From positions 1-25,410 of IMG/VR virus record IMGVR_UViG_3300034198_015726: 25,410 bases of DNA. One strand, 5' to 3'. The DNA is from a virus. The notes beneath the pieces were generated by a model. The model saw only the letters and a program-made list of their open reading frames with translations. It was not told where the DNA came from and did not search any database. This document shows, in pieces, positions 23,287 through 25,410 of the stretch. The position numbers and the translations under genes are program-made. Numbering within the stretch: the first letter of the stretch is position 1; the number at the start of each line of letters is the position of its first letter.

Positions 23287-24009
23287 ATGGCACTACCTAA
23301 ATTGAAAATACCGATGTTTGATGCAACTATACCATCAACCAAAAAGAACATAAAGTACAGACCTTTCCTAGTCAAAGAAGAAAAGATTCTTCTGATGGCA
23401 CAGTCAGGCGCTAACAAAACAGAAATGATTAATGCGCTTAAGCAAGTAATCAACAACTGCAGCACAAACTTAGACGGCAGCGATGTTGACGTCGATGAGC
23501 TAACTACCTTCGACCTTGAATACATGTTCGTTAAAATACGTTCTAAGTCAGTTGATAACATCGTCAAGCTCAAGTATATCGATCACCAAGACGAAAAGAC
23601 ATATGAATTTGAAGTCAAGCTAGATGAACTAGAAGTCAAGTTCGATAAAGAACATACAAATAAAATCAAAGTATCAGATGATATTGGCATAGTCATGAAG
23701 TATCCTACCGCTGCTCTTATGGGTAGCTTGGATTTAGAGGCTATGAACGAAACCGAAATTACTACTACTCTTATCAAAGAATGTATGGAAAAAATCTATG
23801 ACGAAGATACAGTTTACGTAGTTAAAGAAAACGATCCAAAAGAACTAGAAGAATTTATTGATTCATTGAACGTAAAAGCTTTCGAAGAAATTCAAAAGTT
23901 CTTTGCTACCATGCCTAAACTATACCACAAAATTGAGTATACAAACTCAAAAGGAACAGCAAGAGAAATCGAACTGTCTTCGTTAGATGATTTTTTTACC
24001 TTTGCCTAA
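23287..24009 (+). CDS. 26: Baseplate hub assembly protein gp26-like
   Basis: A 240-residue protein starting MALPKLKIPMFDATIPSTKK with the gp26 family pattern: IKYRPFLVKEEKILLMAQSG, NALKQVINNCS, LTTFDLEYMFVKIRSKSVDN (about residues 75-94, the most conserved part), then a YPTA-L segment and a helical C-terminal end ELEEFIDSLNVKAFEEIQKF, FFATMPKLYHKIEY. T4 gp26 has 208 residues. In T4 gp26 and gp51 act in building the hub, and they sit beside the tape measure gene, as here. It is preceded by TTGGAGAT, a good ribosome binding site. Near its end a seven-T run at 23991-23997 may divert ribosomes into the -1 frame. Confidence 0.85.
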   Translation: MALPKLKIPMFDATIPSTKKNIKYRPFLVKEEKILLMAQSGANKTEMINALKQVINNCSTNLDGSDVDVDELTTFDLEYMFVKIRSKSVDNIVKLKYIDHQDEKTYEFEVKLDELEVKFDKEHTNKIKVSDDIGIVMKYPTAALMGSLDLEAMNETEITTTLIKECMEKIYDEDTVYVVKENDPKELEEFIDSLNVKAFEEIQKFFATMPKLYHKIEYTNSKGTAREIELSSLDDFFTFA

Positions 24010-24170
24010 ATCATAACAGCTTATCAAATTATTACTCAACGATATTTTCTATGGCACAACATTATCATTACTCGATAAGCGATCTTGAAGAACTCATTCC
24101 ATTCGAGAGGGACATATACGTGTCAATGTTAAACGATTACATAGAGAGTAAGAAAGAGCAAAATGGCTGA
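23287..24170 (+). CDS. Putative frameshift fusion of gp26-like protein and downstream frame
   Basis: This is a hypothesis product. If ribosomes slip one base back at 23991-23997, the first 237 residues of the gp26-like protein would be followed by 57 residues: 18 encoded between the slip site and 24050, then the 39-codon frame at 24051-24170, giving about 294 residues. I read the -1 frame codon by codon from 23997 to 24167 and found no stop. The added tail ends in SISDLEELIPFERDIYVSML. The layout (short product, -1 extension, then the tape-measure gene) is that of lambda gpG/gpGT, where the extension binds tail tube protein. Not demonstrated here. Confidence 0.5.
23991..23997 (+). promoter_or_regulatory. 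Candidate -1 ribosomal slippery heptamer
   Basis: Seven consecutive T, phased T TTT TTT relative to the gp26-like reading frame (GAT TTT TTT ACC). This is a homopolymeric form of the X XXY YYZ rule, allowing both tRNAs to re-pair after a one-base backward slip. The zero-frame stop TAA follows four codons later. No stop occurs in the -1 frame until 24168. No Shine-Dalgarno-like stimulator is seen close upstream and no strong hairpin right after it. Confidence 0.5.
24051..24170 (+). CDS. 39-codon frame between gp26 and the tape measure
   Basis: The frame begins ATGGCACAACATTATC and encodes 39 residues: MAQHYHYSISDLEELIPFER then DIYVSMLNDYIESKKEQNG. It is acidic and helical, and the I-P-F-E-R-D-I-Y pattern looks conserved and non-random. 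No Shine-Dalgarno-like sequence precedes the ATG (the upstream bases are AACGATATTTTCT), unlike nearly all genes here. It lies in the -1 frame of gp26 and its 3' end overlaps the next gene by eight bases. Either it is a free small protein or, more likely, the C-terminal extension of gp26 reached by frameshifting. By place it corresponds to T4 gene 51, but that product is about 249 residues. Confidence 0.6.
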   Translation: MAQHYHYSISDLEELIPFERDIYVSMLNDYIESKKEQNG

Positions 24171-25410
24171 CGATAATAAACAACCCACCCCAAAAGAAAG
24201 TTCACCTACTGGTGCGCCGATTAAAGATCGCAGCAAGATGACTTATGATGAAATGATGGAGGCTGGTAAAGACGATCCGTTGGTAAAAGAAAACGAAGCT
24301 GAACGTAAAACAGACGCCGCTATCGCCGTCGTTAAAGGTGTAGCAACGGTCGTGGTTGGTGCATTAGCACTTAGAGCCGGTGGACCTGCAGCACTTGCAG
24401 TTGGCGGAGAAGCAGCAGCAGTTGGCGGAGAAGCAGCAGCAGTTGGCGAAGGTGGTGTGATTGCGAACACATTACGTGGAGCAAAAAATTTAGGCGGAAA
24501 GGTAGTAAGGGGAGCAAAAAAAGCAGCAGTAGTTGGTGGTGCTTATGAAGTAGGGAAAGCTATGGGCAGCGGTGATAATGAAGGTGACGGTGAAGAACAA
24601 CCAGAAAAAGAAGATTCTGGGTTATCTGTGCTTTCACAAAGAGCTAAAGGGCAGGGGTATAATCCTTTAGAAGCTGCGATCCTTAGATCAGAAGGCATCA
24701 ACAGACAAGGCTTTTGGCTTTCTAGAAACGGCAAGAGCGTAAAAAAAGAAGAAGTTGAGTCCACTCTTAAATCCAGTCCTTTCACAGTAATAATCAAAAA
24801 ACTTGATTTTATCATAGAAAAATTAGATCAGATAGATGACTCGATAACTGAAGTAAAAAACATATCAAAACAACAGCTTGACTTACAAAGAAAAATCTTT
24901 GAAGCTCAGCAAATGGCGGCTGCAGAAAATGCAGATACCCCTCAGAAAGAAGGTGGTGATGGTTCCGCTTTTATTCGAAAACTAAAAGCGGAAACAAATT
25001 CTTTTCTTAAGACGCTTGGTTATCTTTTAATTCCTCTGGCATTAGGTTTAATTTCTAAATTTAAAGATAGTTTGCAATCAATTGCTGGTGCGGTTAATGG
25101 GTTGATTGGATGGATCAATAAATCCGTAAGCGGTATTAGTGGGTCTATACGAAAAACAATAGAAGGCGTCAGCAGTAGAATTTCTAAAGCGTTTGGTGAT
25201 GTTAGAGCTTCTATCAGTAAAATGATAGAAGGCATCAGCAGTAGAATTTCTAAAATAGTAGAAAGCGTCAAAGGCACCTTTAGTAAATTATTTGAAAATG
25301 CCAAAAATTTCTTATTTGGTAAAAACAAAGCAGCAGAAGTAGCACCAAAGGTAGCAGAAGCCACTAAAGTTGCAGAAGCTGGTAAGGCTGCAGAAGTAGC
25401 ACCAAAGGTA
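24163..25410 (+). CDS. Probable tape measure / inner tail protein, 5' part
   Basis: The frame from the ATG at 24163 is open for 416 codons to the right edge, so it is incomplete. The residues fit a tape measure: a charged N-terminus (MADDNKQPTPKESSPTGAPI), a hydrophobic alanine/glycine-rich stretch (VVKGVATVVVGALALRAGGP), a helical coiled region (IIKKLDFIIEKLDQIDDSIT), a second membrane-like segment LKTLGYLLIPLALGLISKF near residue 285, then helical repeats SISKMIEGISSRISKIVESV and an Ala/Val/Lys repeat near the edge. In T4 the tape measure gp29 follows 26, 51, 27 and 28; here the gene directly follows the gp26 locus and overlaps the 39-codon frame by eight bases. Alternative: another internal virion protein. 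Confidence 0.65.
   Translation, partial: MADDNKQPTPKESSPTGAPIKDRSKMTYDEMMEAGKDDPLVKENEAERKTDAAIAVVKGVATVVVGALALRAGGPAALAVGGEAAAVGGEAAAVGEGGVIANTLRGAKNLGGKVVRGAKKAAVVGGAYEVGKAMGSGDNEGDGEEQPEKEDSGLSVLSQRAKGQGYNPLEAAILRSEGINRQGFWLSRNGKSVKKEEVESTLKSSPFTVIIKKLDFIIEKLDQIDDSITEVKNISKQQLDLQRKIFEAQQMAAAENADTPQKEGGDGSAFIRKLKAETNSFLKTLGYLLIPLALGLISKFKDSLQSIAGAVNGLIGWINKSVSGISGSIRKTIEGVSSRISKAFGDVRASISKMIEGISSRISKIVESVKGTFSKLFENAKNFLFGKNKAAEVAPKVAEATKVAEAGKAAEVAPKV
24400..24448 (+). repeat. 21-base tandem repeat in tape-measure candidate
   Basis: Two perfect copies of a 21-base unit (24400-24420 and 24421-24441) plus a seven-base partial third copy. Each unit encodes VGGEAAA, in frame, so the repeat changes length by whole heptads of residues without shifting the frame. 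It is part of the hydrophobic/alanine-rich region near residues 80-95 of the protein. Confidence 0.85.
25159..25254 (+). repeat. 66-base spaced direct repeat in tape-measure candidate
   Basis: Two 30-base copies, 25159-25188 and 25225-25254, differ at one position and lie 66 bases apart. They encode IEGVSSRISK and IEGISSRISK, so the protein repeats with a 22-residue period, close to two heptad-based helical turns sets. This suggests recent duplication inside an elongated helical rod. Confidence 0.85.
25333..25410 (+). repeat. Ala-Glu-Val/Lys repeat at the right edge
   Basis: A 21-base unit encoding AEVAPKV (25333-25353) recurs exactly at 25390-25410, where the window ends, with related units AEATKVAEAGKA between them. 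The spacing is 57 bases, a multiple of three. More copies may follow outside the window. Confidence 0.8.

Follow-up and report, generated by a model that had tools for sequence, protein, structure and literature searches.

A gp26 gene of the T4 type with an in-phase T TTT TTT heptamer and a predicted -1 frameshift into a gp51-like extension

Long-tailed phages such as lambda produce two forms of a tail assembly chaperone from a locus directly upstream of the tape measure gene. A short form, gpG, ends at its own stop codon, and a -1 frameshift near the end of that frame, at the slippery site G GGA AAG, yields the extended form gpGT. Comparable genes have been described in the T4-like phages. 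Vladimirov, Gautam and Davidson (Virology 2022) reportedly identified the tail assembly chaperone genes of T4-like phages together with a frameshift in T4-like groups, and their abstract is said to describe the frameshift as conserved in several of these groups and to name genes 26 and 51 in T4. In T4 itself, the two products are encoded separately. T4 gp26 (208 aa) consists of the PF12322 domain only, while in T4 gp51 (249 aa) the PF12322 domain is continued, within a single reading frame, by an extension.

Passages of two later papers, both citing Vladimirov et al. 2022, bear on the same genes. Poly-T slippery sequences are stated to be known in the TAC-N genes of T4-like phages (PMC12846349), and other T4-like phages are stated to possess a separate short gene plus a fused long gene (PMC10885494). 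A -1 frameshift at a GTTTTT motif is also described for the chaperone locus of the Vandenendeviridae and Andersonviridae, again before the tape measure gene (PMC12846349). A preliminary description of the locus examined here was aware of no frameshift for a T4-type gp26. On the evidence of these passages that view was mistaken (PMC12846349, PMC10885494), and a frameshifted gp26 chaperone is already described for T4-like phages and is not new in kind. A search of the literature on gp26, the baseplate hub and cyanophage frameshifting found no direct description.

The locus lies in IMG/VR virus record IMGVR_UViG_3300034198_015726, of which positions 1 to 25,410 were analysed (25,410 nucleotides, hereafter the window). 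As far as the cited passages describe them, the T4-like gp26/gp51 chaperones share their genes and logic with the window, but the window represents a lineage whose gp26 is at most about 46% identical to any phage record among the matches listed. The window also resembles lambda in having a putative short chaperone and a predicted -1 extended form directly before the probable tape measure gene, the predicted slippage site being close to the 3′ end of the short frame; its T TTT TTN heptamer differs from the lambda site. As in the Vandenendeviridae and Andersonviridae, the -1 shift predicted here would take place on a poly-T site upstream of the tape measure gene, but the site itself differs (PMC12846349). 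Relative to T4, the short form of the window corresponds to gp26 and the long form to gp51, in which the extension is in frame. In contrast to the window, T4 genes 26 and 51 are on opposite strands and are expressed without a frameshift, and the slippery site of T4 gp26 now reads GAG TTC TTT, i.e., it has been lost.

Layout of the locus and the gp26 fold

The features of the locus are collected in Table 1. The 3′ end of gp26 reads GAT TTT TTT ACC TTT GCC TAA. The run comprises seven T in X XXY YYZ phase, with TTT TTT as 0-frame codons of gp26, and is followed by three sense codons and the TAA that begins at 24007. From the first post-slip codon, TAC at 23997, the -1 frame is uninterrupted to 24167 and closes with TGA at 24168–24170. 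The predicted fusion would thus comprise 237 + 57 = 294 residues. The first ATG of the -1 frame opens 39 codons; no ATG, GTG or TTG lies between it and the heptamer in that frame, and no Shine-Dalgarno sequence was found for it in the window. The next ORF overlaps the 3′ end of the -1 frame. The preliminary description had noted the heptamer in the correct phase, the -1 frame open into a 39-codon ORF without a Shine-Dalgarno, the tape-measure candidate directly after it, and an extended product of about 294 residues, and each of these points held.

Table 1. Features of the gp26 locus in window coordinates.
Feature	Coordinates	Strand	Basis
gp26, most likely the short chaperone form (TAC-N), 240 aa	23287..24009	+	PF12322, phrog_150, AlphaFold model
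Slippery heptamer T TTT TTT	23991..23997	+	window sequence; conserved in relatives
-1 extension (TAC-C, gp51-like domain), 57 codons + TGA	23997..24170	+	phrog_634 match; synonymous changes
Predicted gp26-gp51 fusion (TAC-NC) via -1 slippage, 294 residues	23287..24170	+	
39-codon ATG ORF, not regarded as an independent gene here	24051..24170	+	
Probable tape measure gene from its start, cut by window end	24163..25410	+	weak family matches
5′ arm position of the relatives' stem, decayed here	24005..24014	+	columns 15-24 of alignment
3′ arm position of the relatives' stem, decayed here	24051..24060	+	columns 61-70 of alignment

In-phase canonical heptamers were counted over the 8180 codon positions of the window's genes. 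Thirty-seven were found, five of them T TTT TTN. In none of the 36 others does the -1 frame stay open beyond 42 codons, and the gp26 heptamer is the only one within six codons of a stop whose extension exceeds seven codons. The heptamer and open -1 frame at the end of gp26 are therefore not a chance occurrence in the window, and the conservation across relatives described below is, at the level of sequence, the decisive evidence against chance.

The gp26 protein belongs to PF12322, the T4 gp26 family (E 4e-56, profile positions 5–218 of 219), and matches phrog_150 (E 8e-61). In relatives, it carries the annotation "baseplate hub subunit". An AlphaFold model of the protein has a mean pLDDT of 90.8, and its top match among solved structures is 2ob9, the tail assembly chaperone of HK97 (Z 8.5, rmsd 4.0, 88 residues). 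Foldseek compared the model with the HK97 chaperone at a probability of 0.91, with a weak E of only 0.12 and a match confined to residues 1–89. Sequence searches of solved structures with gp26 or the -1 peptide returned nothing relevant. Since the model matches the fold of the HK97 chaperone and the gene is positioned before the probable tape measure gene, gp26 is read as a chaperone of the G/GT type, and its most likely identity is that of a tail assembly chaperone, not of a baseplate hub component. The role as a tape measure chaperone proposed in the preliminary description is supported by this fold match and by the in-frame long form that is T4 gp51.

Conservation of the slippery site and of the -1 extension

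Relatives were collected by gp26, by the -1 peptide (ignoring the heptamer), and as named phages. In 123 of the resulting 124 loci, which were not chosen for the heptamer, an in-phase T TTT TTN occurs within eight codons of the gp26 stop, and in 121 it is within three codons. The heptamer, the -1 phase and a PFERDIY-type peptide, for which the preliminary description had suggested an alignment, are conserved in cyanophages, the pelagiphage HTVC008M, KVP40-like phages, and phages of Aeromonas, Cronobacter, Stenotrophomonas, Rhizobium and Ochrobactrum; loci with the site also include KVP40 itself and Methylophilales phages. The lone locus without T TTT TTN is that of Vibrio phage 1.255.O (Ackermannviridae; L123, 2160–2384), where gp26 ends in CTT TTT CGC TAA; an open -1 frame is present there as well, encoding a quite different peptide. 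A second set of loci was retrieved with the extension peptide of the stem-bearing group (see below) alone, and all 79 of its loci have TTTTTTT where it was predicted. Part of this set consists of contigs already seen, and 35 loci are distinct (<85% identity) from the earlier ones.

Across 93 dereplicated loci, T is invariant as the last base of the codon preceding the two Phe codons (FF), and TTT is used without exception for the first Phe, whereas TTC accounts for 33% of Phe codons elsewhere in gp26. The naive probability of this invariance is ~10^-38, a figure that is overstated since the loci share ancestry. No stop separates the heptamer from the extension in any relative examined, and the gp51 frame is -1 relative to gp26 in all relatives compared. 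A stop or a random phase in relatives, either of which was held in the preliminary description to tell against a frameshift, is thus not observed.

Homopolymers are prone to error, and an assembly or read error could have hidden a true run of eight T, in which case gp26 and gp51 would form one continuous gene. This explanation is extremely improbable. Two independent contigs (L002 and L003), whose gp26 is 70–72% identical to that of the window, keep the same phase and the same FFxFA-stop end of gp26, which favors seven T, and the frame break is common to more than 150 other loci. Transcriptional rather than ribosomal slippage on the T run could also join the frames, and the window's clade does possess runs of seven to eight T. 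However, 38 of the 93 loci have six T only, followed by C, which is short for polymerase slippage; the run keeps strictly to X XXY YYZ phase, wobble T included; and relatives conserve a Shine-Dalgarno-like motif and a stem at distances appropriate to ribosomal stimulators. Slippage by the polymerase is consequently considered very improbable.

The -1 peptide falls into the T4 gp51 family: it matches phrog_634 (E 3.9e-21), annotated as "baseplate hub assembly catalyst". T4 gp51 itself also matches phrog_634 (E 1.2e-23), and because it carries the extension in frame, the extension can be taken as a real protein. The match spans extension residues 2–55, including the 18 residues that precede the ATG. 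Three helices are predicted for the extension, the first at residues 6–23 (moderate confidence). As the ATG is residue 19, a start there would cut the first predicted helix. Given this position and the lack of a Shine-Dalgarno, the ATG ORF is not regarded as an independent gene of this phage.

Codon changes point to coding in the -1 frame ahead of the ATG. From the gp26 stop to extension codon 18, 42% of changes are synonymous in the -1 frame vs. 11% in the other two frames. Between the window and L002, seven of the eight codon changes upstream of the ATG are synonymous, and changes in the extension relative to L002 and L003 are mainly so.

Phage records (e.g., L030 and L121) often either list the -1 extension as a gene of its own, "baseplate hub assembly catalyst", or leave it unannotated. 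Two genes are annotated in most records, and KVP40 has a TAATG overlap, as would be expected if gp51 were a conventional gene of its own whose translation re-initiates at the gp26 stop or beyond it, the -1 phase of gp51 being that of the usual ATGA/TAATG overlap. For several relatives (KVP40, S-PM2), a separate gp51 product is indeed possible, since an ATG for gp51 occurs at or near the gp26 stop. As a general account, however, re-initiation gives no reason why the wobble T and the TTT of the heptamer should never vary. In many loci, including the window, the conserved -1 peptide begins at the heptamer, before any ATG, GTG or TTG; the first such codon of the extension is at codon 9 or later in 52 of the 93 dereplicated loci. 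Together with the full fusion in T4 gp51 and the helix that would be cut in the window, these observations make the separate-gene explanation quite improbable. The small ORF that is routinely annotated as a separate gp51, or missed, would here be the C-terminal part of a predicted frameshift product.

RNA elements flanking the site

Many relatives, but not the window, carry additional signals on both sides of the heptamer. At the Glu codon in position -4 from the codon preceding FF, GAG is used in 30 of 51 loci, compared with 12.8 expected from each gene's own codon usage (z 5.8). This bias produces a Shine-Dalgarno-like GAGGG about 9 nt before the heptamer (14 to 10 nt; e.g., in L004, L029 and L032). 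The motif is found in 30 of the 93 dereplicated loci, and its spacing resembles that of dnaX. At the same place, a stretch of 5–6 nt complementary to the 16S tail occurs in 34 of the 93 loci vs. 8% of control positions.

Downstream, the 60 nt starting 13 nt past the first base of the heptamer fold more stably than shuffled sequences (mean z -2.04, with 47% of loci below -2), whereas eleven control positions gave mean z values of 0.01 to -0.55. In the group nearest to the window, a stem pairs alignment columns 15–23 with 62–70, beginning 7 nt past the heptamer and enclosing a loop of ~38 nt. For tests of pairing and covariation, 34 loci were selected by their peptide, and the stem was lengthened to columns 15–24/61–70. 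Pairs form in 83.5% of cells vs. 21–42% when the arms are slid, and two-sided changes number 15 vs. 6.0 in shuffles (0 of 500 shuffles as high). At pair 16–69, for example, both C-G and U-A occur, exchanged by way of synonymous Leu and Gln codons. This stem is also recovered by RNAalifold from 27 loci that had been selected for its presence. Among the 35 held-out loci, 28 form 8 or 9 of the 9 pairs, and the paired total of 284 exceeds that of all 1000 arm permutations (mean 272, maximum 279).

Loci bearing the covarying stem are L035, L004, L006, L034 and ~25 more. One stem common to all 93 loci was considered and rejected, as the long stem is limited to one group and hairpins differ elsewhere. 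In cyanophages and other lineages (e.g., S-PM2), short hairpins occur in place of the long stem. In L097 (~2495–2574), the 5′ arm GGCTGAG is kept and paired with a nearer arm, CTCAGCC, suggesting that the partner of the stem is able to move.

Besides the window's clade, several others (e.g., L135, L141, L145, L180 and L194) have lost the long stem. About five of its pairs remain in the window, L002 and L003, which lack both the Shine-Dalgarno-like motif and the downstream stem, and no downstream RNA structure is predicted in the window (z 0.37). A dnaX-like arrangement, i.e., a Shine-Dalgarno 9–14 nt upstream and a stem 5–8 nt downstream, is thus present in many relatives and missing in the window's clade. 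Because both elements are gone, the slippage rate in that clade may be low or may rest on the heptamer alone. A bipartite signal, with GAGGG placed 9 nt upstream of the heptamer and a covarying 9-bp stem 7 nt downstream, could drive the frameshift of T4-like phages, some lineages including that of the window having lost it and relying on T TTT TTT alone; we consider the chances of this proposal to be evenly balanced. No description of GAGGG and a stem at the T4-like chaperone site was found in the literature searched, in which the content of Vladimirov et al. 2022 is represented only indirectly, and the flanking stem and Shine-Dalgarno-like element may be a new detail. If new, these conserved elements offer a handle on how T4-like phages set the ratio of short to long forms, and on why T4 swapped the frameshift for two genes.

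Proposed expression and the tape measure gene

Very probably, gp26 is a tail assembly chaperone to which -1 slippage on T TTT TTT adds a gp51 domain. From the heptamer, its phase, the open and conserved -1 coding frame, the family membership and the fold resemblance, all evident in the sequence, we infer the occurrence of slippage, its rate and the chaperone function. Most ribosomes would terminate at 24007 and release the 240-residue short form. A minority would slip by -1 on the heptamer, with both tRNA-Phe re-pairing on UUU UUU, and continue to 24168, yielding the 294-residue form with the additional 57 residues of the gp51 domain. By analogy with lambda gpG and gpGT, many copies of the short form might coat the tape measure protein, and a few copies of the long form might recruit tail tube subunits.

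The order of gp26, -1 extension and probable tape measure gene is common to the window and its relatives. The ORF that begins at 24163 matches tape measure families weakly, with phrog_167 as its top hit (E 2e-6). In L002, the uncut counterpart is 749 aa long with a C-terminal stretch that appears lysozyme-like, as judged by eye, and in HTVC008M a "putative tail tape measure" is annotated after the same cassette. The ORF is thus a probable tape measure gene. Short internal repeats, GGEAAAV and SSRISK, occur in the predicted protein (window positions 24390–24450 and 25140–25270).
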